Virus record (IMG/VR): IMGVR_UViG_3300028920_000694
Location: 51,334 to 115,333 of that record
Length of the DNA stretch: 64,000 nt
DNA from: a virus
Reading direction: 5' to 3' (one strand)
Positions 1,597 through 52,228 of the stretch are shown in pieces. Every line of letters starts with the position of its first letter. Position 1 is the stretch's first letter. Both the position numbers and the translations under genes were made by a program. The notes beneath the pieces are model-generated. The model was not told where the DNA came from, searched no databases, and worked only from the letters and a program-made list of their open reading frames with translations.

Positions 1597-4500
1597 TTAT
1601 CTAGTATTCCGATACCTAAACTTTAATTGATTTGTAAATGCACCAACATCCTGAATTCCATGAACATTTATAGGTCCATACATATTATAATTCTCACTCA
1701 TTGTATCTCCAGAATATGTCACATTTCTATTATAGGATGTTCCACCGAACACTCCACCTTTCTGCATTCCAAGCAGATTAGAATAATGTGTAGAGAGTAA
1801 ATATTTCATGATATTCTCACCATATTTACGATTAGTTCCCTCTAATGGAACAAGTGCCTCTGCTCCTTTTTCACCAAACACTCCAGCAGTTGGAGAATTA
1901 AATATTCCACCTCTTTCTCCAAATACTAGATTTCTAGCAACATTTCCAAATTCATCAAACATTGCTCCTGGATTTCTTATGGTATTCATCACAATCTCAA
2001 ATGCAGTTCCTGTTGAAGTATTGATATTATTCATTAGATTAAATATATTCTGTAATTCATTCTTTAAATCTATTACCTTGAGATTTAATTTATCAACATC
2101 GGATTGAGTATATCCGATTACTCTATCTACAGCCAACCATGCATCTTCTAATTCATAAGTGATGGTAGTACCTTCATCTGTAGCCTGTGCCATATCATTA
2201 GCTTTATCTTTTATCTTAGTAACTGTTGTAGCAACATCATTAGAAGCAATACCTATATCCATATAGTGTTCTGCAGTATCCATTGCCACATCATTGTATT
2301 CCTTCTGTTCTTTAGTTGCAGCATCTATATATTCTTGTAATTCTGCCTCTGTTATGTCACCCCTAGCATATGCTGCCCTAGCCTTAGCTAAATCACCTTC
2401 TGCTTCTTTCCATTCTTTATACTGTTCAATTATATCTTCAGTGAGAAGTGCTTGTTCAGCTAACCCTTCAAATAATTCATCATCCAGTTTCTTTTTATCT
2501 TCTGCTATCTTATATTTCTCTAATTCAATCTTAAGTAGTTTATCTTCTAATTCATAGACATCCAACATTGCCTCTGCTTTATATTTCTCTTTATTAGTGA
2601 CTATATCCAATACCTTAGCATATTCTGACATTGCTGAATTCAATTCACTCTGAACTTCTAGTAATTCACCCCTTCTATTTATTATATCAGTGACCTGTTC
2701 CAGAATTGCTAATTCATTCTCATTTAATTTTTCAGATAGAGAATTATATGTAGCAGTAGCAACTCCCAGTTCTTCTCTTCTAATTCTCAATTCATCAGTT
2801 ACATCAGATAAATCCTGAGTTATTCTATTAGCTTGATTTAATAATAAATTATATTCCTCTTCTCTATCAGGCCCAAGTCTATTCATTTCTTCTCTGGTGT
2901 CAATCAATCTCTGATTCAGATTCGTTTGTTTTCCTGATAATCTATTAATGTCTTTATTAATGTTATATAGATTTGTATATGCATCAACTGCATCTCCAAC
3001 TTCTGGACTCAAATCATGCATCAATTTAAGAATGTCTGATGATACACTTAATACATCACTTTCACTATCAGCATATTTCCTTGTAGCATCACCCAAATCT
3101 ATAAGTAAATCATTATATTCTTCATTTCCCTTTTTACCTTCTGCAGTTAATTCATTTAATCTATTCTGAATCCTGACTACCCTTGATAATCCATCTAACC
3201 AATCAGGTATAGCTTTATTTGAATATCTTTGTATTACAGTCATTCCATCTTCACCAGTTTTTGTTAATTTCTCCCATGCTTCATAACTTAATGTCAAACT
3301 CTCTTGAACACCTTTAATCTTATCTATCATACCAAGTGCACTATCAATCATTGATGCAATTGAACCAATAAATGGAATAGCTTTCACCATATCTTTTATT
3401 GTCCCAAAGAAATCAAAATCACCTTCACCACTAATAATCCCTTGGAGTGATTTTACTGATTCAATTAATTTCCATAATGCACCAGTTAATTCTTCACCAA
3501 TAGCTGCACCTAATTCCTGTGCATCACCAGCTAATTGTTTGAATTTGCCTGACATTGTATCCATCTGTTTCTCAGCAATAAATTCAGTGATTCCAGACAT
3601 TTCCTTAGTGATAAGGACATAATCTTCTATTTCATCAACTGCACTCACTAGAGTAGCTGCAGCAGCAGCAGTTCTTGCTCTAAACATCTGTGAAGCATCA
3701 GCCACACTAAATTGAGCATTCTTTAATTTTCTAAGTATGTCTACTATACTATTAACTGTTGGATCTATATCAGATAGAGTTAATCCTAATGCAGCAAGTG
3801 CTCTCTGTCCCTTATCTGTTGGAGTCAGAAGTTTAGTAAATATCATATTTAGACGTTGACCTGCTTGTGCACCCTCATAACCTCTATCAGCAAGCAATGT
3901 CAATGTAGCTCCTATTTCTCTAAAGTCTTGATTCAATTCACCTGCTATCTGTCCAACATACTGGAATGCATTAGCCATCTTTTCTGCAGTCATAAATGAA
4001 TTAGTAATCAAAGCAGTGAATGTATCTACAACCATACCAGTATCATCAAGTTCAAGTCTAAATTGTTTTAGAACTGTAATTACATATTTAACTGCTTCTT
4101 CTAGATTTGTTTGTGTAGCAGTAGCATATTGTAAAATAGGAAGTAATTCTTTAGTAGATGATATAACTGGATCAATTCCAGCACTGGCAACTGTATACAT
4201 TGCCTTAGCTACTTCTGTCATAGTGAATATGGTCTTACTAGCAAGTTCTCTAGAAAGTTTACTTATTGCATTAACTGCTTTATCAAAGCTATGACCTAAA
4301 TATCCTGAAACAGCAGCAGCATTCACTACTGCACTCTCAAATTCCTTAAATATCTCTATAGAATTCTCTAGTCCTTGCCTTATAGCCATCACCATCTGAA
4401 CACCTATAGAGAATGAAATGTAGTGGACAATCTTCAACATGAACTTCTGCCAGCTAAGCATATACTTCAATTGCTGTGCAAAGCTCTGTTGCATACCTTT

Positions 4501-4629
4501 GGTAGATTTATTTACTGTCTTGTGAATTGCAGTCATTGACTTGTTCATCTCAGCCTTGACTCGATTCAAGCCAGTTGTCTTTATCTGCAAATCAACATAT
4601 ATACTACCAGCTTTAGTTCCAGTTACCAT
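1597..4629 (-). CDS. Tail tape measure protein
   Basis: This 1010-residue protein sets tail length and is threaded through the tail tube. Residues ~80-400 match the conserved core of TP901-type tape measures: alpha-helical AMYTVASAGIDP, then ITNSFMTAEKMANAFQYVG and LLADRGYEGAQAGQRLNMIF. A hydrophobic stretch lies near residues 45-65. Residues ~500-850 are long charged coiled coils. The C-terminus has the typical GVFGEKGAEALVPLEG motif found at tape-measure ends. The gene precedes the hub gene. Unusually, it is separated from the tail-tube and chaperone genes by a ~11 kb block of fibre and surface-protein genes. Confidence 0.93.
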   Translation of the reverse strand: MVTGTKAGSIYVDLQIKTTGLNRVKAEMNKSMTAIHKTVNKSTKGMQQSFAQQLKYMLSWQKFMLKIVHYISFSIGVQMVMAIRQGLENSIEIFKEFESAVVNAAAVSGYLGHSFDKAVNAISKLSRELASKTIFTMTEVAKAMYTVASAGIDPVISSTKELLPILQYATATQTNLEEAVKYVITVLKQFRLELDDTGMVVDTFTALITNSFMTAEKMANAFQYVGQIAGELNQDFREIGATLTLLADRGYEGAQAGQRLNMIFTKLLTPTDKGQRALAALGLTLSDIDPTVNSIVDILRKLKNAQFSVADASQMFRARTAAAAATLVSAVDEIEDYVLITKEMSGITEFIAEKQMDTMSGKFKQLAGDAQELGAAIGEELTGALWKLIESVKSLQGIISGEGDFDFFGTIKDMVKAIPFIGSIASMIDSALGMIDKIKGVQESLTLSYEAWEKLTKTGEDGMTVIQRYSNKAIPDWLDGLSRVVRIQNRLNELTAEGKKGNEEYNDLLIDLGDATRKYADSESDVLSVSSDILKLMHDLSPEVGDAVDAYTNLYNINKDINRLSGKQTNLNQRLIDTREEMNRLGPDREEEYNLLLNQANRITQDLSDVTDELRIRREELGVATATYNSLSEKLNENELAILEQVTDIINRRGELLEVQSELNSAMSEYAKVLDIVTNKEKYKAEAMLDVYELEDKLLKIELEKYKIAEDKKKLDDELFEGLAEQALLTEDIIEQYKEWKEAEGDLAKARAAYARGDITEAELQEYIDAATKEQKEYNDVAMDTAEHYMDIGIASNDVATTVTKIKDKANDMAQATDEGTTITYELEDAWLAVDRVIGYTQSDVDKLNLKVIDLKNELQNIFNLMNNINTSTGTAFEIVMNTIRNPGAMFDEFGNVARNLVFGERGGIFNSPTAGVFGEKGAEALVPLEGTNRKYGENIMKYLLSTHYSNLLGMQKGGVFGGTSYNRNVTYSGDTMSENYNMYGPINVHGIQDVGAFTNQLKFRYRNTR

Positions 4630-4682
4630 ATCTATCTATTCATTTATCTTTAATTTTATACATAATTCACATTTTCCATTTA

Positions 4683-4808
4683 AAGGGGTCAAAGAGCTAT
4701 TCTGAGAGACCTTGCATTGCACCCTACCTATACCATTAGATAACTTTTAAAGTGCTTCAGCGTGGCTCTCTGTTAATCCTCAGCGATGTTTCAGACATAT
4801 CCTAAACC
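4683..4808 (+). repeat. Dispersed structured element, copy A
   Basis: This is an intergenic copy of an element that also occurs near 32.8, 37.1, 37.3 and 51.9 kb. Blocks in order are AGAGC (4693-4697), CTGAG (4702-4706), CCATTAG (4733-4739), CTTCAGCGTGGCTCT (4755-4769), AATCCTCAG (4775-4783) and TATCCTA (4798-4804). AGAGC is complementary to GCTCT (4765-4769), CTGAG to CTCAG (4779-4783), and ATGT (4786-4789) to ACAT (4795-4798). The conserved strand is opposite to the flanking tail genes, so either the element is made as a separate plus-strand RNA or its complement is part of the tail mRNA. Confidence 0.6.
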
Positions 4809-4828
4809 TCATTTCCTAATATATCAGT

Positions 4829-5269
4829 TTATATAACAACCATCAGAGGTTCCCAATTACTTGGTAGTTTAGATATATTATCATTTTGAGGTTCAACTAT
4901 CCATACATCTAAATTATCATCTACAAATATATTCACAGCATGTGGATATGTGAACATAGGAGTATTAGATATCAATATACCAAATGGTAAACTAGACCAG
5001 TGTTTGATAGAGAACTGTCCATATAGTCTAATACTAAAATCATCACAATCCAAATATTCAGAAATATATGACTCTTTATCTGTATCATCTTGTGATATGA
5101 ATCTAGCATACTCTGTGAGAGATGTAAGTTTGTATTTACTATCATATATGTAGATAACACAACTCTCTCCTAATTCAGCTCTTAATGTAGACATTAATTC
5201 AGTATATTCTACATCCACTAATGGACTAGGCTTTCCTAGCTTACTCTTACTAAACCATCCTAAACACAT
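4829..5269 (-). CDS. Papain-like / MOA-lectin-related domain protein
   Basis: This 146-residue protein has a DCDDF motif (about residue 73), a later PHAVNIFV segment and VEPQND near the C-terminus. A CDD(F/Y)-His-Asn-EPQ series is typical of small phage proteins related to the C-terminal papain-like domain of the mushroom lectin MOA (transglutaminase/cysteine-protease-like fold). That family assignment is from memory of the pattern. The Cys and His could be catalytic, but the fold may also act only structurally. It follows a membrane-anchored beta-helix gene with TAA-ATG adjacency, so it probably belongs to the same surface or tail-fibre cassette. Confidence 0.5.
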   Translation of the reverse strand: MCLGWFSKSKLGKPSPLVDVEYTELMSTLRAELGESCVIYIYDSKYKLTSLTEYARFISQDDTDKESYISEYLDCDDFSIRLYGQFSIKHWSSLPFGILISNTPMFTYPHAVNIFVDDNLDVWIVEPQNDNISKLPSNWEPLMVVI

Positions 5270-9162: not shown

Positions 9163-11255
9163 TACTTACCACCTATATCTAATGTCTCTTGATCTTCTAC
9201 TCTTATAAATACCACATCATCTTCACTAATTGTAATTGATGGTTCCATAAATCCAACTATATAATATTCCCATTCATAATTAGTTTCATTCCAATACCAT
9301 ATTTGTTCATTATCATCTAGAGTAGTGGAGATATCTGACGTAGCCATATCAGAAGCTGTTGTAGATTCATCATCTGTCCACCCAACATAATTACCACCAT
9401 TATTTACACCAAATGTTAGAGTAACTTCTCTTGCATCTGAATATGTTGTTCCAGAATCTTCAGGCATATCTATCTCTATATCACCTACATCATCAGTTAT
9501 ATACACTTTAATTACCATAAATGTATCAATATTAAAATTAGTTCCAGATTCATCATGTGGATAGTAAGTTTGCCATAAACCATCATCCCCCCAAGAAGTT
9601 GCAGTCCAAGATGCTATATATTCACCATCACTCCAAGTTATCCCTTCATCATCAATGATATCAGCAACACCAGATGCATCTTCATCATCATCTCCCAACC
9701 ATATAAAATAATCAATGCCATCTGTTCTTATAGTAGATTTATATACAGACAATGTAGTAAAATGAAAAGTACTATTACACCAGCCACCCTCACCATCAGA
9801 AACATTCATGCTCCACCAATATTTTGTATTGTAACTACTGAAATTACTTGTAGGTTGCGAGATATTTGTATTATTAGCAACAGAAGTATTAGATGCAAAC
9901 TGTACCCAACTACCACTACTATTACTCCACCAAGTTACATCCATACTGTCACCATTAGGGTCAGTAACAATACCATATAAGGTAGGATTCAAAGAAATAC
10001 CTATGCTACCATTCGTAGGACATTCACCAGATACCCCATCAGGTGCAGCGTTTACAATATAAGTACAATACAACAGATATTCCCAATTAGTATTTTCAGC
10101 GTTCTTTGTATAAGGATTACTCCATGTAGGATATGTTTGATAATCTTGAGCAAACCACTTATCATCACCCTCTACAGTATATCCTATCCTACCAACATTT
10201 TCACCACTTCCAAAACATACAACCATATATTCTGTATCATCATATACATCGACATCTTCATCTAAAGTAAAACTCACCCAGCCCCAATCTTGATTAATAA
10301 CTTTTTCTTCAGTAGTCTCAATAAATGCTAATGTATCATAATCATATAAAGCACATTTAACATTAATGTTAGCACTAGAATAAAGATATGCATGAATTGT
10401 TTTAGCTACACCATCTGATGCTGGAGTATCTTTACATGCAAATTCACGTATATTTATAGGACTATACCATCCATATGCACCACCATTATATCCAAATTCT
10501 GGGTCAATTTCAAAACTATTACCAGACTGTAATGGGTTACGACTCATATTTTGTGTTAATCTAAACCAGAAAACATCATTGCCATTGATATTCTTAATAC
10601 CATGATTAGCCAAAATTACCCCATCCTGAATTAAAGGTTTGACATCCGAGAAGTTGAAAAGCACATTATAATCTTCAGTAGCATTAGCTGGATATGTGAT
10701 TTCGTATTCATACAATGATGTTTTATTTACATAGTTTTTAACAGCAATGTCAATACCAAATGTGAATCTAAAATAAGTATCTATAGGTGCATTATTAGTA
10801 ACCTTTAATGTAATTTTTTCGCTAGTATTATCCTCAGACCTAATTCTATTTATATCAAGCCAGTTATTAAGGTTCTCACCTTGGAACTCAGTAACCCACT
10901 CCTCGAGAATAGGATGCCAAGCCTCTAACTGCCATGCACTATGAGCCAGGAATAACTGCCAGAAATAAGACCAGTTAACTGTTTTAAATATTGTTTCACC
11001 AATACCAAAACTATCTACAGGAGGGACAATATATTCATACAAATAAGGTTCATCATCAGGTGGATCATCAACAGGACCACCTACTGGTAATAATGATATG
11101 CTAGCTGAACCTATAGTTATTATTGATGCAACCGTTACAATCTTTTTCCAATTTCTCTTCCACCAGCCCTTCTTTGTGAAGAACATTACAAGTAATGGAA
11201 CTTCTATAAATGTAATTATTAATACTAATAATAGTATATAAACTAATTCAATCAT
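9162..11255 (-). CDS. Membrane-anchored surface protein with archaeal S-layer-like Ig repeats
   Basis: The 697-residue protein has an N-terminal TM segment (~5-26), a basic loop (KKGWWKRNWKK), a second hydrophobic segment (~38-58) and an acidic-proline linker. Residues ~85-390 are beta-rich. At ~400-500 is an Ig/fibronectin-like module with NPTLYGIVTDPNGD, TWWSNSSGSW and KYWWSMNVSDGEGGW, a repeat type widespread in surface proteins of Thermoplasmatota and other archaea. Many N-x-S/T sequons suggest heavy glycosylation in an archaeal host. The C-terminal ~180 residues are another acidic beta domain. The module is probably of host origin; the role (adhesion, superinfection control or virion spike) is inferred. 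Confidence 0.6.
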   Translation of the reverse strand: MIELVYILLLVLIITFIEVPLLVMFFTKKGWWKRNWKKIVTVASIITIGSASISLLPVGGPVDDPPDDEPYLYEYIVPPVDSFGIGETIFKTVNWSYFWQLFLAHSAWQLEAWHPILEEWVTEFQGENLNNWLDINRIRSEDNTSEKITLKVTNNAPIDTYFRFTFGIDIAVKNYVNKTSLYEYEITYPANATEDYNVLFNFSDVKPLIQDGVILANHGIKNINGNDVFWFRLTQNMSRNPLQSGNSFEIDPEFGYNGGAYGWYSPINIREFACKDTPASDGVAKTIHAYLYSSANINVKCALYDYDTLAFIETTEEKVINQDWGWVSFTLDEDVDVYDDTEYMVVCFGSGENVGRIGYTVEGDDKWFAQDYQTYPTWSNPYTKNAENTNWEYLLYCTYIVNAAPDGVSGECPTNGSIGISLNPTLYGIVTDPNGDSMDVTWWSNSSGSWVQFASNTSVANNTNISQPTSNFSSYNTKYWWSMNVSDGEGGWCNSTFHFTTLSVYKSTIRTDGIDYFIWLGDDDEDASGVADIIDDEGITWSDGEYIASWTATSWGDDGLWQTYYPHDESGTNFNIDTFMVIKVYITDDVGDIEIDMPEDSGTTYSDAREVTLTFGVNNGGNYVGWTDDESTTASDMATSDISTTLDDNEQIWYWNETNYEWEYYIVGFMEPSITISEDDVVFIRVEDQETLDIGGK

Positions 11256-32165: not shown

Positions 32166-32760
32166 TATCCATTTCGTTAATTTAGAATTTTTTAACTAAG
32201 CAGGTAATTGAAATATATTCCCCCTACATATCCCTCTTTATGTTTATATATAAGCCTGAAGATAAATATACCCCTGCCATCCATGAATTAATATATATTT
32301 AATTAGATAAATCTAATCCTACATGCTCAACTACATATATATCTGACCATGAATATATATCTACTTTTATAGAAGTAAGCCTATATAAATGAATCTATAT
32401 TCCCCCCTGTATAGAAGCCTGTATATAGAAGCCTAAGTATAGAGATAAGTATATAATTCTCTAAATATATAATTAATTTAATTCTATTTCCCTCTATATA
32501 TCTTATACTATAATTCTATTTATATAAAGCCCGTAACATTAACCCCTCTATTTACTTTTATCTTATCTATTGAATATATTTATTTAACGCTATCTTTGAC
32601 CCCTAGACCTAGACCCCTACTTTTATCTAGTGTTATACATATATATCTCTATTGTTACATTTGTTTGAATACAGCATTTTTATTTAGAACAGCCCTATAA
32701 ATATATGCAGAACCCAGAATTTGAATATATCCATTTTTTGAGAATACCCCGAAATTTTGC

Positions 32761-32851
32761 CTGAGGAAGCCCATATATAGCCCATAGAAGCAATATCTTT
32801 TCTTAGCCTTATCGTTCTTAAGCCTAAGGTTTAGACCTCTCAGAATCGCTT
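32761..32851 (-). repeat. Dispersed structured element, copy B (minus orientation)
   Basis: Read on the minus strand it has AAGC (32851-32848), GATTCTGAGAGGT, a variable part, AAAAGATATTGC, GCTT (32792-32789) and CCTCAGG (32767-32761). AAGC pairs with GCTT where copies A and C have AGAGC with GCTCT, so both sides change together. CTGAG pairs with CTCAG as in the other copies. It lies in the non-coding control region. Confidence 0.5.
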
Positions 32852-33128
32852 ATATGCAATCTTTGTTTGCATTTTGATTATTATCCCCCTCTATGAATAT
32901 AATTGTTTTTGAAACAAATTGATTTATACCCCTAGACCCCTTATATCTATTCAGGTATTTATATATTAGAATAGAGATATTTATCAGATTGAAAAAAATA
33001 TATAGAGGTATAAATTTAATTATACCCCTATACTTATTTTAGATATTGGTATTATTTTCCTTATTATCTGTCCCTCTTTATTCTGTGTATAAAGTGTAAT
33101 TATGTTATTCCTTGATTTATCTATTTTC

Positions 33129-35609: not shown

Positions 35610-35840
35610 ATGAAGCCAATTACATTAGAACAAGCCAAGAAATTGACTAGAGGAACAATCCTTTATTGTATGATATGTGATAATGCAGATGGAACACCTC
35701 AGAGATGGAGAGTTAATGGAAAAGTCAAGAGATGGAAAAGGAATCCAGATAGGATAGAGATACCTATTAAAAGAGGTTTATATGAATGCTATTATCTAAC
35801 AAATGCAAACATTGATTGTTTTTCTTTGGAGGCTGATTAA
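35610..35840 (+). CDS. Conserved phage-type small protein (NADGTPxRWRVNGKVK)
   Basis: This 76-residue protein contains ITLEQAKKLTRGTILY, NADGTPQRWRVNGKVKRWK and KRGLYECYYLTN. I recognise this as a very widespread small protein of tailed phages; its function is not known. Its presence shows gene flow with bacterial-type viral gene pools. It is intact and well placed in the operon. Confidence 0.7.
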   Translation: MKPITLEQAKKLTRGTILYCMICDNADGTPQRWRVNGKVKRWKRNPDRIEIPIKRGLYECYYLTNANIDCFSLEAD

Positions 35841-36023
35841 ATGAGAGAAGAAAAATACATTCTCACTCTTTATTTACCTGATGACTATCCCCAGATGACT
35901 AAAACAGAAATCTTTGGGAAATTAATGAAGTCCACATCTAAACTATACAAAGAGGCAATAGACATATCAATTACTGACTTATCTATACAGAGCAAGATAA
36001 ATGAACATCTAGGAGGTGATTAA
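35841..36023 (+). CDS. Small hypothetical protein
   Basis: A 60-residue protein (KYILTLYLPDDYPQM ... MKSTSKLYKEAIDISI) with alpha/beta character, unrecognised. Starts immediately after the previous TAA with a GAGGCTGAT ribosome-binding site. Confidence 0.5.
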   Translation: MREEKYILTLYLPDDYPQMTKTEIFGKLMKSTSKLYKEAIDISITDLSIQSKINEHLGGD

Positions 36024-37046: not shown

Positions 37047-37085
37047 GAATCTTATTTTTATTCAAGATCAAAATAAAAACACCAA

Positions 37086-37175
37086 AGAGCAATGCTGAGG
37101 CACTTTAATCTTACCCTTACCTAACCATAGGGTGAGAGAGATATGCTCTCAGAATCCATCTATGACAATCCTCAG
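37086..37175 (+). repeat. Dispersed structured element, copy C
   Basis: It has AGAGC (37086-37090), CTGAGG (37095-37100), CACTTTAATCTTACCCTTAC, CCATAGG, GCTCT (37145-37149) and CAATCCTCAG (37166-37175). AGAGC/GCTCT and CTGAGG/CCTCAG are complementary. A competing local hairpin TGAGAG/CTCTCA is also possible here. The central ACTTTAAT...CACCCTTAC-type block is shared with copy D 190 nt downstream. Confidence 0.55.
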
Positions 37176-37271
37176 AGGTTCTGCTTCATCACTAGAAACC
37201 CCACATCCAGAGTGCATACTTATCGACAATTGCAGTAGAACATATAGGCATATTCCAGAATCTTCATTTTA

Positions 37272-37383
37272 AGCCATTCTGAGCCACTTTAATGTTCACC
37301 CTTACTCTACCATTAGGAAGAAAAGATATTGCGTCAGCGTTGCTCTCTGTCAATCCTCAGGCAAATCTAGAGGGTATCCTAGA
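37272..37383 (+). repeat. Dispersed structured element, copy D
   Basis: It has AGCCATTCTGAG (37272-37283), CACTTTAATGTTCACCCTTA, CCATTAGG, and a 24-nt block at 37321-37344 (from AAAAGATATTGC to AGCGTTGCT) identical to copy E at 51941-51964. It continues with CAATCCTCAGG (37351-37361) and a terminal hairpin-like TCTAG...CTAGA around GGTATC. It lies between converging operons. Confidence 0.65.
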
Positions 37384-37399
37384 CCCAGATTCTATATCT

Positions 37400-37421: not shown

Positions 37422-37619
37422 TTAATTAATGATTTGAAACGTCAATCCATATCTCTCTAGATTCTTAACGAATCCATCATCTTTATTATATCCATTAATG
37501 TGTTCTTTTTGTTCTTCAAGATATTCAACTATATCATCTGCTGTTCCAAACCAAGCAACATAACTACTATCACCACTATCAAATATCCTGTATATTGTTT
37601 CTAATTGACATATTCTCAT
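37422..37619 (-). CDS. Small acidic protein
   Basis: A 65-residue protein (IYRIFDSGDSSYVAWFGTADDIVEYLEEQKEH) of alpha/beta type, last in its operon. Unrecognised, but the start has GAGGTGAG upstream and follows the neighbour closely. Confidence 0.5.
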   Translation of the reverse strand: MRICQLETIYRIFDSGDSSYVAWFGTADDIVEYLEEQKEHINGYNKDDGFVKNLERYGLTFQIIN

Positions 37620-41340: not shown

Positions 41341-41345
41341 ATAGA

Positions 41346-41483
41346 ATGAGAAGAATAATGTTTAAGTGTCCTGAATGTGGGAATGTCTACCTACCTAAAA
41401 GAATACAGATATGGGTAGATATAACTACGCACCTGATTGTGAGTGTAGCAAGTTTCTTTGCTGGTGTAGTTTATTGGAGTTGA
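41346..41483 (+). CDS. Zinc-knuckle membrane protein
   Basis: A 45-residue ORF with an N-terminal CPEC half-ribbon and a C-terminal hydrophobic segment (HLIVSVASFFAGVVYW). Only two Cys, so metal binding would need a dimer. Unrecognised. Confidence 0.4.
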   Translation: MRRIMFKCPECGNVYLPKRIQIWVDITTHLIVSVASFFAGVVYWS

Positions 41484-42762: not shown

Positions 42763-43701
42763 GTGAAAAAGAAAAAGATTGAATTTAAGGTGAATGAAGA
42801 TTATTCTAAATGGTGTTTTAGATTAGATGTTGCAGACTATGGTAGACTAGAAAAAAGTATAAAGAAGAATGGAATCAAAACAGAGCTTCATGTTCTTCCT
42901 GATGGAACCATTCTCTGTGGGCATCACAGATATGAAATAGCCAAGAAACTAGGAATTCCAGATGAAAAAATTCCATATAAAATAATTGATTTACCAAATG
43001 AATACGATAGATTACTTTACTTAATTGATGATAATCTATCAAGAAGACAATTAAATCTAGCACAGAAGATTAGATTAGGAACTCAATATGAAGAGATTGA
43101 GAAGGTGAAAGCGAAACAGAGACAGAAAGAACATGGTGGAACAGCACCTGGTAAGGAAAAAGACACTTCGGGAAATATTTCCCAGAGTGATACAGGTCGA
43201 GCAAGAGACAAAGTCGGAGAGAAGATAGGGGTATCTGGTAAGCTCTATGATATGGGTAAAACAGTAATGGAAGAAAACCCAGAAGATTTCAAGAGAGCTG
43301 AAGCTGGTGAAGTATCTATTAGTAAGTTATATTCAGAAATTCAGGAAGAAAAAGCAAAAAAGAAGATACAAGAGATGAAAGAGAGTTGGAGTAGGATTAA
43401 TACTGAACCTAATCCTAAAAATGATTTAAGAGAGATTTATCGAGTATACTATGAAGGGCTATTTGAATTTGGAGAGGCATTAGTTGATGCACTCTCTAAC
43501 TTTGAATTCATCACGAAAGAGGAATTTATGGGTGGTGAGGAAATTAATCTAACGAAGATAACTAAATCTATTATAGATGATGACTACTTTATAGATGAGA
43601 AGGATAAGTCACTTGAATTACTCAAAAATCTAACAAAGAAAATGGAGAATGCAATCAAATCATGTAAGAAAATATTAAAATATAATGATATGGAGGAATA
43701 A
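42763..43701 (+). CDS. ParB-like nuclease-domain protein
   Basis: Residues ~15-100 of 312 form a ParB/Srx-type domain: SIKKNGIKTELHVLPDGTIL, then CGHHRYEIAKKLGIP and IPYKIIDLPNEYDRLLYLID with NLSRRQLN. The next part (TSGNISQSDTGRARDKVGEKIGVSGKLY) is a helix-turn-helix region typical of phage ParB-like proteins. The C-terminal ~110 residues are unrelated and helical. In viruses such proteins act as DNA-binding regulators or modifiers. Start is GTG at 42763. Confidence 0.75.
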   Translation: MKKKKIEFKVNEDYSKWCFRLDVADYGRLEKSIKKNGIKTELHVLPDGTILCGHHRYEIAKKLGIPDEKIPYKIIDLPNEYDRLLYLIDDNLSRRQLNLAQKIRLGTQYEEIEKVKAKQRQKEHGGTAPGKEKDTSGNISQSDTGRARDKVGEKIGVSGKLYDMGKTVMEENPEDFKRAEAGEVSISKLYSEIQEEKAKKKIQEMKESWSRINTEPNPKNDLREIYRVYYEGLFEFGEALVDALSNFEFITKEEFMGGEEINLTKITKSIIDDDYFIDEKDKSLELLKNLTKKMENAIKSCKKILKYNDMEE

Positions 43702-43702
43702 A

Positions 43703-43954
43703 ATGTTCTGTAAAGAATGTAAAACATTGATGTATCCAAAAGAAGATATGTTTATATGTCCAAAATGTGGATTGAAAAAGAAAAAGAATAAGAGAATTCA
43801 GATTATTTCTCATCAACTTGAAACTGAAGAGATAGAAGTATATAATGACAACCCAATTAAGAAAAAGATGGAAGAGATTGATGAGGAGATAGATGGATAT
43901 TTCTTTAAGAAACATGAAAACAAAGATAAAAAAGAGGAGATTGATGAAGAGTAA
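43703..43954 (+). CDS. TFS/RPB9-like N-terminal zinc ribbon protein
   Basis: Starting at ATG 43703 behind GGAGG, this 83-residue protein opens FCKECKTLMYPKEDMFICPK with CxxC...CxxC, then a basic linker and IISHQLETEEIEVYND. This is the pattern of the N-terminal zinc ribbon of archaeal TFS and RPB9 (FC-x-x-C-x-x-x-M/L-x-P). The C-terminal catalytic ribbon (RSADE) is absent; an acidic tail replaces it. It could bind host RNA polymerase and alter its activity. Confidence 0.55.
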   Translation: MFCKECKTLMYPKEDMFICPKCGLKKKKNKRIQIISHQLETEEIEVYNDNPIKKKMEEIDEEIDGYFFKKHENKDKKEEIDEE

Positions 43955-49858: not shown

Positions 49859-50920
49859 ATGTGGATAGAGGAACTCTTCTATGACTCGATGGGAACAGCC
49901 AGAACCAGAATCCTTAGCGATTCAGGCAAGGAATACATCACCAACATCAGAAAGGATTGGATATCTTGGTGTTCCTGTCCTAGTTGGATATACAACAAAC
50001 TCCCCTGCAAGCACATAAAGTTCCTGTATTCAAAATTGGAGAAAGAAAAAATGGTTGATAAATCAGATAAATTAGTTAGGATTCCAACTGAGAGTAAGAT
50101 AATTGATGATATGATTGGAGGAGGATTCCCCCAGAAGTTAATCACTGCTATCTTTGCTCCACCTGCAACAGGAAAGAGTTGGTTAGCCTATCAGGCAGGT
50201 GTGAGTAACATTAAGACTACAGGTCAGGAGACTCTACTCATAGATACAGAAGGAATCACTAGAGAGGATTTAGATAACATCCTCACAAAACTATCTAAGA
50301 GATATGATGCAGATGCTAAGACAGTGAAGAAGAAGTTCAAGATGATAAAGACATATGATGATCCTAATGCTATGTCGATTCAGAAGCTACTCATGATGTT
50401 CGGATTCTTTGTGAAGCTAGAGTTAAGTGAGAAAGGTAAATATAAAGTAACATTCCAGCCATATGACCAGACACTTAAGGTGAATGAGTTAGAGAACATC
50501 TCTATGATTATCATAGACTCTCTAACTAAACCTATCAAGGACTCTATTGGAAGTGAGACAGCAAACCTACCTGCGAGAGCTCAGATAGTAGAGAGAATGT
50601 TCGGGAAGCTCTATCAGATAGCAGAGTTATATAACATTTCAGTGATTGTGAATCATCATGCATCTGTTCCACCACCAGTGGGGTATGTTAAAGCACCTTA
50701 TGCATATGGGGGTAATCCGATCTACTATAACTCTAAGTATATTCTAGAACTCTTTGACTCTACTAAAGCAGAGAGAGATATCAAGTGTGTGGAGAACAAG
50801 AAGAAGACATGGGACCTTGAAGCCAGAAGAATCAGATTGGTTAGAAGACCAGATGAACAACCCACTGGAGAGAAGGTTCCTATCAGATTAAAGAAAGATA
50901 TTGGATTCGTGGATGAATGA
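49859..50920 (+). CDS. SWIM zinc finger - RadA/RadB-like recombinase fusion
   Basis: The first ~60 of 353 residues hold a SWIM zinc finger (C38-S-C40 ... C50-K-H52, CxC-x9-CxH). From ~70 on is a RecA-fold domain with Walker A APPATGKSW (~100-108), a strand ending LLIDTEG, Walker B SMIIIDSLTK (~215), and SVIVNHHA, the L2-adjacent signature of RadA/RadB. Archaeal RadB is a short recombinase paralogue. The SWIM fusion is unusual. It probably acts in recombination-dependent replication. Confidence 0.8.
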   Translation: MWIEELFYDSMGTARTRILSDSGKEYITNIRKDWISWCSCPSWIYNKLPCKHIKFLYSKLEKEKMVDKSDKLVRIPTESKIIDDMIGGGFPQKLITAIFAPPATGKSWLAYQAGVSNIKTTGQETLLIDTEGITREDLDNILTKLSKRYDADAKTVKKKFKMIKTYDDPNAMSIQKLLMMFGFFVKLELSEKGKYKVTFQPYDQTLKVNELENISMIIIDSLTKPIKDSIGSETANLPARAQIVERMFGKLYQIAELYNISVIVNHHASVPPPVGYVKAPYAYGGNPIYYNSKYILELFDSTKAERDIKCVENKKKTWDLEARRIRLVRRPDEQPTGEKVPIRLKKDIGFVDE

Positions 50921-51373: not shown

Positions 51374-51655
51374 ATGGCAGTTAGGCAGTTCTATATCAAA
51401 AGAATATGCAATGAAATCATGAAGAAGTTTCCTGAAATGGCAACAGAAGACTTTGAATTGAACAAGCAATTAGTTAATGAAATTACAGATGTTCAATCTA
51501 AGAAGATAAGAAATAGAATAGCAGGTATGTTGGTCTGCTACAAAAAGAATGAGAATAAGGTGTTTATCCCACCTAAGACTGGAAAGCCTCGAAAGAAGAA
51601 GGGCTGGAAAAAGAAGGAGAAGAATCGTTTAAGAAGAAGGAGAAGAAATAAATGA
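51374..51655 (+). CDS. rps17e: Ribosomal protein eS17 homologue
   Basis: Residues ~3-60 of 93 match the archaeal/eukaryotic S17e core: VRQFYIKRICNEIMKKFP, then DFELNKQLVNEITDVQSKKI and RNRIAGML. Cellular S17e has xFTTDFExNKxxVxxLTDIxSKxxRNRIAGYITR at these places. After the core comes a virus-specific Lys/Arg-rich tail (PRKKKGWKKKEKNRLRRRR). eS17 is a small-subunit protein near the mRNA/beak side of the ribosome, absent from bacteria. The virus copy could replace or modify host ribosomes. Confidence 0.85.
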   Translation: MAVRQFYIKRICNEIMKKFPEMATEDFELNKQLVNEITDVQSKKIRNRIAGMLVCYKKNENKVFIPPKTGKPRKKKGWKKKEKNRLRRRRRNK

Positions 51656-51879
51656 AGAGAGAGGCTGAAGAGAATGGATATGGTAAATATCGGGTGCTTA
51701 ATGTAGGCAAGAGAAAGAAACCAACTACTATTAAATACTATGTCACGTGTGGAGAGTGTGGAGAGATGGTATCATTCACCAGTTCACCAACCATGAGAGA
51801 AGAGTTCATGAAGAACACGTATATGCCTGTCTGTCCTCATTGTGGATGCATAATCAGCAAAAAAGAGAGGAATCGCTGA
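51652..51879 (+). CDS. Zinc-ribbon protein coupled to eS17
   Basis: This 75-residue protein overlaps the eS17 stop (ATGA). It has CGECGE and CPHCGC with a Lys/Arg-rich N-terminus, consistent with a basic zinc ribbon like several small ribosomal or translation proteins. Its pairing with eS17 suggests a translation-related role, but the family is not identified. Confidence 0.5.
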   Translation: MKREAEENGYGKYRVLNVGKRKKPTTIKYYVTCGECGEMVSFTSSPTMREEFMKNTYMPVCPHCGCIISKKERNR

Positions 51880-52003
51880 GGATTGATTCTTAGCCATTCT
51901 GAGAGGTTTAGATGTTAGGAGGTATAATACCATTGGCAGAAAAAGATATTGCGTCAGCGTTGCTTATATGCAATCCTCGAGCAAAATTAGAGGGTATCCT
52001 CGA
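51872..52003 (+). repeat. Dispersed structured element, copy E
   Basis: GCTGAGGATTG (51875-51885) pairs with CAATCCTC-G-AGC (51971-51982), 11 bp with one bulge. Inside are AGCCATTCTGAGAGG, CCATTGG, and the 24-nt block at 51941-51964 shared with copy D. After the stem, GAGG-GTAT-CCTC (51990-52001) can form a 4-bp hairpin. The element lies between eS17-ribbon and FeoA-like genes on the coding strand, so it is transcribed in the mRNA. Confidence 0.65.
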
Positions 52004-52018
52004 CTGGAAGTGTGAAAT

Positions 52019-52228
52019 ATGAAGATTGGAGATAAAATGAAGGTTCTAGGCTTTGATTGTGGAGCCAGAGCATACCATAAATTCAATGTGATGGGCATCA
52101 GAATCGGAAGCATTCTAGTTCTAGAGGCAGTTCAGCCTCATGGTCCATATACATTTAGAATGAAAGGAATGAAGTTAACAATAGGTAGAGGTTTGCTTGA
52201 GAAATTAAGGTATGAGGTGATTGAATGA
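52019..52228 (+). CDS. FeoA-like SH3-fold protein
   Basis: A 69-residue protein (GDKMKVLGFDCGARAYHKFN, VMGIRIGSILVLEA, FRMKGMKLTIGRGLLEKL) matching the FeoA domain pattern (G-x-x-G-x-V-x-G ... L-x-x-x-G-I-x-x-G ... V-x-G-x-x-x-x-L). FeoA domains occur in iron transport and at the C-terminus of DtxR regulators. A stand-alone viral copy could modulate a host regulator. Confidence 0.65.
   Translation: MKIGDKMKVLGFDCGARAYHKFNVMGIRIGSILVLEAVQPHGPYTFRMKGMKLTIGRGLLEKLRYEVIE

Follow-up and report, generated by a model that had tools for sequence, protein, structure and literature searches.

The stretch of viral DNA around positions 51876-52005 raises the question of what a non-coding sequence of about 130 nt, repeated between the genes of one virus, does there, and whether it acts as RNA, as a DNA site or as a mobile element. 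These positions belong to a window of 64,000 nucleotides (the whole stretch that was analysed), which corresponds to bases 51,334-115,333 of a 115,333-base IMG/VR record (IMGVR_UViG_3300028920_000694), here called G000. The original prediction had described five copies, A to E, as a dispersed family of structured elements in which complementary pairs persist while their sequence changes, with a pseudoknot implied by the order of the pairs. The reading that we favour, at somewhat less than even confidence, is that the family consists of DNA-level cis-elements of about 130 bp at gene junctions, bound by a putative protein. A MITE-like mobile family is a distinctly less probable explanation, and a structured RNA is less probable again.

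All five copies are present in the window and lie within a few bases of their predicted positions, as judged by direct reading and by an nhmmer profile of nine copies. This profile recovers copy A at 4676-4810 (+; 88.9 bits), B at 32739-32869 (-; 77.8 bits), C at 37069-37182 (+; 63.6 bits), D at 37256-37386 (+; 112.2 bits) and E at 51876-52005 (+; 107.5 bits). Two further copies, F (G000:C1:9165-9299, -) and G (G000:C1:43739-43875, -), lie outside the window and bring the total in the record to seven; F was first found by a DNA search, and G by a profile of A-F. When each of the seven was sought by leave-one-out nhmmer with a profile of the other six, held-out E-values were 4.3e-10 (A), 1.1e-5 (B), 7.3e-6 (C), 3e-24 (D), 5.1e-22 (E), 1.2e-13 (F) and 5e-12 (G), against a background of 10 Markov-resampled genomes in which no score exceeded 9.8 bits. 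The exact identity of a 24-nt block in D and E, reported previously, holds, and the two copies are otherwise diverged outside it. The remaining two members of the nine-copy set, H and I, are carried by a distant relative, G410 (IMGVR_UViG_3300030616_000090; 21,057 bases), which was found by a DNA pattern and has a terminase 34% identical to that of G000. Within the set A-I, every held-out copy scores 25.8-91.3 bits against a profile of the other eight, and the maximum over 4,500 dinucleotide shuffles (500 per copy, made from its reverse complement) is 5.3 bits.

The element is non-coding, and its most constant property is length. Its core, bounded by end motifs matched by hand, measures 88-91 nt in all nine loci at pairwise identities of 38-71%, and across the 36 pairs the core alignment contains 1,478 substitutions vs 46 gap events. 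In copy E, a left outer arm, GAGGATTG (51878-51885, +), is complementary to a right outer arm, CAATCCTC (51971-51978, +). These arms form the 8-bp core of what had been described as an 11-bp closing stem; it is this core, GAGGATTG/CAATCCTC, that direct reading confirms. Strong outer arms occur in two copies and differ in sequence, with ATTTAAAGG/CCTTTAAAT taking their place in G. Further to the right, copy E carries a short dyad, GAGGGTATCCTC (51990-52001, +), the terminal hairpin of the original prediction. By eye in the alignment, variants of this right-border dyad are found in most copies; in copy C, the right-hand hairpin is not clear by eye. Within each copy of G000, two imperfect inverted arms also form an inner pair on either side of a short central stretch; this stretch reads GGTATAATACC in E, F, G and H, and A, C, D and I have a ACCCTACCTATACC-like version.

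The copies of G000 show inverted symmetry; for those of G410 it is unproven. The reverse complements of A-G, scored against held-out profiles, beat nearly all of 500 shuffles; the number of shuffles scoring as high was 0 for A, 3 for B, 0 for C, 1 for D, 0 for E, 2 for F and 5 for G. Copies H and I gave no reverse-complement match to the held-out profiles, and a cruder test of the consensus dyad was not above shuffles (262 of 300 scored as high).

For a structured RNA, pseudoknotted or a simple nested hairpin, which would act in viral transcripts or as a separate small RNA, several results speak in favour. The core-alignment helix scan used nine rows, made up of seven loci and the strain variants E2 and B2, which are not extra loci. 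Among the 2,016 helices of 13 bp scanned in this alignment, the top ten all fall on one diagonal, which corresponds to a nested stem of 13-14 bp that includes the arms AGAGCCAYGCTGA and TCAGCGTGGCTCT; the same diagonal is on top again once H and I are added. Read by eye in a register of its own, copy H makes 12 of 13 pairs; in the common register it makes 10 of 14. The core alignment stops short of the CTCAG block, and its helix scans cannot show the CTGAG/CTCAG pair. In an extended alignment, this pair is the best 6-bp helix (83% of cells) and its diagonal is also on top at 8 bp; at 10 bp, a different, third diagonal takes its place. The CTGAG/CTCAG pair had been proposed for most copies. It is complete in A-D (four of seven), and by eye E retains four of five pairs (one of them T-G), F three and G one. 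Its complementarity is conserved, without compensating changes. The AGC/GCT pair described earlier proves to be part of the nested stem, and CTGAG/CTCAG competes with that stem for the same CTGAG.

Pairing maintained through compensating change does not emerge above shuffles from these alignments. For the pseudoknot, 71.3% of cells are paired vs 69.8% after shuffling, with 190 of 500 shuffles as high. For the nested stem, the corresponding value is 65.0% vs 66.0% and 65.8% after 3' letters were shuffled among copies. Sliding the partner by 1-3 columns lowers pairing to 32-49% in both nested-stem tests and in the pseudoknot test, which indicates that complementarity is a property of the columns rather than the product of compensating changes. 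The pairs said to persist despite sequence change are therefore paired to the same extent as shuffled arms, and the GCTCT of copy C is, by eye, out of register with the other copies. G-U combinations in the nested stem are not in excess of A-C (12 vs 9), and RNAalifold predicts 0 pairs. Folding z-scores (named/other strand) are -0.1/-0.2 for A, -1.2/-0.7 for B, -2.9/-0.5 for C, 0.0/0.5 for D, -0.9/-2.1 for E, -0.1/-0.9 for F, -3.5/-2.9 for G and -1.7/-2.1 for E2, whereas 30 random windows have a mean of -0.27 (sd 1.06) and a lowest value of -3.08. The values of C and G on the named strand and of G and E on the other speak for structure. Against it, A, D and F are near 0 on both strands (-0.9 to 0.5), A, B, D and F all lie inside the range of the random windows, and one random window itself reaches -3.1. 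The named strand is, moreover, antisense to the neighbouring genes in A, F, G and probably H.

No known RNA class accounts for the family either, as the original prediction had noted: a search of the window against Rfam 15 returned 0 matches at gathering score, and a lenient search around C/D, E and F gave five sub-threshold matches to lncRNA and snoRNA families. No tRNA or tmRNA was detected in the window or in L021-L023, L349 and L350. Taken together, the covariation tests, RNAalifold and most folding scores do not support a structured, pseudoknotted viral RNA; covariation in the expanded alignment is nowhere above shuffles within the power of nine loci. With this limited power, the RNA reading is judged to be unlikely. 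Correcting this attractive but unsupported reading is one outcome of the analysis. Paired cells that equal shuffles, together with the near balance of G-U and A-C, suggest that the two arms decay independently, as DNA half-sites may do, and independently varying inverted half-sites would be the expected trace of a protein-bound DNA dyad.

The position of the copies among the genes is consistent with a role at gene junctions. All seven copies of G000 lie between genes and in both orientations, in agreement with the original prediction; copy E overlaps the last 8 bases of the ORF at 51652-51879, and F touches a stop codon. Copy A occupies a 199-nt gap between the tape-measure gene (1597-4629, -) and an ORF at 4829-5269 (-), and B lies in a 1,266-nt stretch that holds no ORF of at least 60 aa, upstream of the terminase operon. 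C and D share a 555-nt gap between convergent genes, around which a scan that does not cover archaeal signals found no sigma-70-like site or hairpin terminator beyond shuffles. Copy E fills a 139-nt gap between a 75-aa ORF (ending at 51879) and a FeoA-like ORF (starting at 52019). F and G lie between same-strand genes in gaps of 182 and 158 nt, the latter measured by ignoring an overlapping 64-aa ORF. G000 has 25 listed same-strand gaps that reach 100 nt, and 4 of them hold a copy (A, B, E and F). In six of the nine copies (A, D, F, G, H and I), the right border lies within 35 nt of the stop of a gene read towards it, as in copy D, 35 nt from the stop of the ORF at 37422-37619 (-); the right borders of B, C and E do not face such a stop. 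Relative to both flanking genes, the named strand is antisense in A, F and G and sense in E. For copy H, the right neighbour is read from the opposite strand, as are, by eye, the small ORFs on its left; the nearest ORF of at least 60 aa on that side lies on the other strand from these antisense neighbours. Since orientation is not fixed relative to genes, a strand-oriented role such as that of a simple promoter is unlikely to be the whole story.

Several features of the surrounding genome bear on its host and contents. G000 is a virus of probably methanogen-related archaea. An archaeal virus is probable from its Rad51, ERCC4, Alba and ribosomal S17e domains, as had been supposed, and terminase segments 39-41% identical occur in one genome from the phylum of a Methanoregula MAG. 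Upstream of copy E, at a distance of two genes, a 93-aa ORF at 51374-51655 (+) holds the S17e-like domain (Pfam 4.7e-10, residues 3-56). It is a virus-encoded ribosomal-protein-like gene, and the relatives G003 and G004 contain related ORFs. Between about 5 and 45 kb (L021-L023), G000 has an arm of roughly 40 kb that is read almost entirely in the same direction and includes sugar-nucleotide, radical-SAM, sulfotransferase, NeuB and glycosyltransferase genes; a ribonucleotide reductase large subunit with an intein is encoded at L021:2329-4533.

A near-identical strain record, G001 (IMGVR_UViG_3300028883_000295; 81,600 bases), shows how the copies change over a short evolutionary distance. It carries A-E and G at the same sites as G000, which accounts for all six comparable copies. 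Copy G lies at base 10,734 in G001 and at 43,740 in G000, so G001 starts near 33 kb of G000 and does not include the site of F. Elsewhere, G001 does not have window positions 35613-35986 and has a 211-aa ORF (L189:1055-1690) inserted at window position 50920. A 500-base alignment around copy E shows about five isolated differences between the strains, plus one patch, at 51953-51971 (+), whose sequence is replaced almost completely in G001. The kilobases around this patch are 97.5-97.6% identical between the strains vs 98.2-100% in most other compared parts. A 20-nt stretch containing the new patch matches copy H of G410 at 17 of 20 positions and the original E at 10 of 20, and it scores 8-12 against the other copies. 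Copies thus seem, from these sequences, to exchange short patches, and the simplest account of this single event would be short-patch gene conversion among copies, including those of other viruses. A patch of 20 nt might also be read as a swapped spacer, the mark of a non-coding RNA whose variable segment guides it to other DNA, as the strain difference in copy E is mainly this one patch. That explanation is barely credible: the new patch is similar to copy H, which belongs to a different virus, an exact 19-mer from the patch occurs in G001 alone among 2.9 million viral contigs, and the patch has no 11-nt match in G000.

Beyond this strain and G410, the family is hard to trace. Among 12 relatives reached through the terminase, one (the strain G001) has the element, and G002-G012 gave no match below E 1. 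The exact 24-nt block of D and E occurs in viral contigs in the strain record alone besides G000. A gapped pattern retrieved 37 viral stretches and at least 117 stretches in bacterial and archaeal genomes, and among 176 loci scored, nothing beyond the copies of G000 and G001 exceeded 13.4 bits. Two further patterns retrieved 28 and 74 viral stretches, from which 101 new loci gave one new copy (L334) and the strain's copy E (L246). As queries for relatives, the ERCC4 and capsid-region proteins matched no viral contig other than G001, and isolate phages and plasmids gave nothing convincing. In 392 genomes of one archaeal phylum, 17 had weak matches at E <= 0.01 (best 23.8 bits, strict filters), which were judged to be chance; the best score in two archaeal genomes with terminase relatives was 13.8 bits, and 398 genomes of a second phylum contained no terminase match. 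G000 and G410 also have a small 45-aa ORF in common (window 41345-41482, +; L349:1403-1264), in which a CxxC motif and a hydrophobic tail can be seen by eye. This stretch of 140 bp lies near copy H and is 80.7% identical in DNA, which implies either recent gene flow between these viruses or a very conserved gene.

The syntenic relatives G003 (137,847 bases) and G004 (154,999 bases) share long collinear stretches with G000 and have no detectable copy of the A-I family. An all-against-all comparison of their intergenic pieces found, besides other repeats, a dispersed family of three copies in each: X in G003 (L235:4972-5123, L233:3509-3646 and L231:19127-19272) and Y in G004 (L239:18387-18471, L241:4368-4452 and L242:18423-18494), the latter weak (E 1e-4 to 3e-3). 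Family X has, by eye, repeated TAGTTACTRTGC-like words and resembles operator repeats. Two places are the same in both genomes. One is directly upstream of the homologue of L021:1882-2172, where X2 and Y1 are found; the other is beside the homologue of L023:8486-9010 at a convergent junction, with X1 and Y3. G000 has no copy at either place. Copy E is just upstream of the FeoA-ERCC4 gene pair, and X2 is one gene away from that pair. Because long gaps tend to reappear at matching places for other reasons as well, this positional match is weak evidence. X has a stretch like ACCCTTACCTATACCATT in common with A, C, D and I, and the best match of an X profile in G000 is copy A, at E 1.8. That X and the A-I family have a common ancestor is therefore no more than suggested. 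In G003, the region L231:16429-19554, upstream of the terminase operon, is mostly non-coding, GC-richer by eye, and contains clustered inverted and direct repeats.

How these observations divide between explanations depends chiefly on whether the copies have been spread or kept. A MITE- or ERIC-like non-autonomous mobile family, with inverted arms and intergenic insertion in either orientation and a transposase supplied from elsewhere, is possible but doubtful. It would explain why there are many intergenic copies in both orientations, with imperfect inverted repeats in seven of nine, and how two of them come to be in the distant virus G410. If the element were taken out of the gaps at A (199 nt), E (139 nt), F (182 nt) and G (158 nt), short spacers would be left, and in G003 the FeoA gene abuts the preceding ORF with no element between them (L233:3627-3917 and 3917-4135). 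Prokaryotic MITEs, among which ERIC is counted, are likewise normally intergenic, according to the accessible part of one account (PMC10969869). However, the copies are much diverged (38-71%) yet nearly indel-free, which is not the pattern of a family that spread recently; the dyad at the right border falls outside the inverted arms; and no transposase is among the matches listed for 80 plus 65 chosen ORFs (the best 25 of 116, 61, 30 and 61). Nor do the two strains differ by an element-specific empty or occupied site, and a clean empty site turned up in no close relative. A role in replicating, partitioning or packaging the viral DNA, as a site recognised at several places in the genome, is very unlikely. 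Copy B, copy I of G410 and X3 of G003 do lie 2-5 kb upstream of the terminase gene, and a ParB-like protein is encoded at 42763-43701, but the seven copies are scattered, several of them between genes of one operon, and the ParB-like protein was not seen in the comparison with G003 and G004.

Reading the family as protein-bound DNA sites, the explanation we tentatively prefer, draws on the constant core length despite 38-71% identity, the inverted arms, the placement at junctions and the occupation of the same sites in G001. The G001 patch that resembles H and the separate intergenic families X and Y of the relatives were also counted in its favour, and the intergenic repeats of halovirus HF2 serve as its precedent. 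A putative viral or host protein would bind the half-sites in either orientation, and binding may mark or insulate the borders of transcription units, in the manner of an operator, a terminator or a promoter border; the spacing would owe its constancy to selection and not to recent spread. The candidate DNA-binding partner in the window is the ParB-like protein of 312 aa (42763-43701, +; PHROG 12047, 9.5e-22), for which the comparison with G003 and G004 revealed no homologue. That no binding protein beyond this candidate was found counts against the preferred reading, as do the unfixed orientation, copies H and I without symmetry, the negative consensus-dyad test, the absence from the syntenic G003 and G004 and the many gaps, most of those present, without a copy. 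A bolder reading, somewhat less probable than a mobile family, is that small sets of long cis-elements are maintained at gene junctions across a clade of archaeal tailed viruses, undergo concerted evolution within each virus by short-patch gene conversion and are co-adapted with a fast-evolving viral DNA-binding protein. The lineages' own versions would then be A-G with H and I of G410, X in G003 and Y in G004. If true, such sets would constitute a lineage-specific control or self-recognition code, comparable to phage stoperators but built unlike them.

Whatever their role, a length-constrained and seemingly patch-exchanging family found in two distant viruses offers test sites for how genomes are divided into transcription units, and a test case for non-coding elements that move between viruses. 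Little seems to have been written on non-coding landmarks in tailed viruses of archaea; for their intergenic repeats, a study of halovirus HF2 is the sole relevant one found, in a literature mostly outside subscription journals.

ERIC elements are 127 bp long, a size similar to that of the present elements, and are placed in both orientations. Like ERIC and other prokaryotic MITEs, as far as the accessible text describes them, the present family is multicopy and intergenic, with imperfect inverted repeats; unlike them, it is viral and highly diverged, has few indels and carries a second dyad outside its inverted arms (PMC10969869). The stoperators of mycobacteriophages, in the available part of their description, are asymmetric 13-bp sites, 24 in L5 and 34 in Bxb1, in one orientation relative to transcription (PMC3029335). 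They resemble the present family in being many dispersed intergenic cis-sites per viral genome with lineage-specific sequences, whereas the elements here are about 130 bp long, lie in both orientations and number seven (PMC3029335, same part). HF2 shares intergenic repeats with other haloferacalesviruses. Those of HF2 contain promoters and occupy constant positions throughout the genus; they are 58 and 29 bp long, with a TATA box, mapped start sites and a native orientation, according to the accessible sections of that study (PMC8707807). In these sections, the likeness is that of dispersed, related intergenic repeats in a tailed archaeal virus (the host being probable here), with blocks of identity between variable positions and some copies at transcription-unit borders (PMC8707807). 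The HF2 repeats are described there as conserved genus-wide in sequence, position and orientation, whereas G002-G012 gave no sequence match here, and the present elements, at about 130 bp, have inverted symmetry and no fixed orientation (PMC8707807). Sequence conserved at matching positions, as in HF2, was seen here in the near-identical strain G001 alone. The closest known kinds are thus the repeats of HF2 in setting and MITEs or ERIC in form, and neither matches the family fully.
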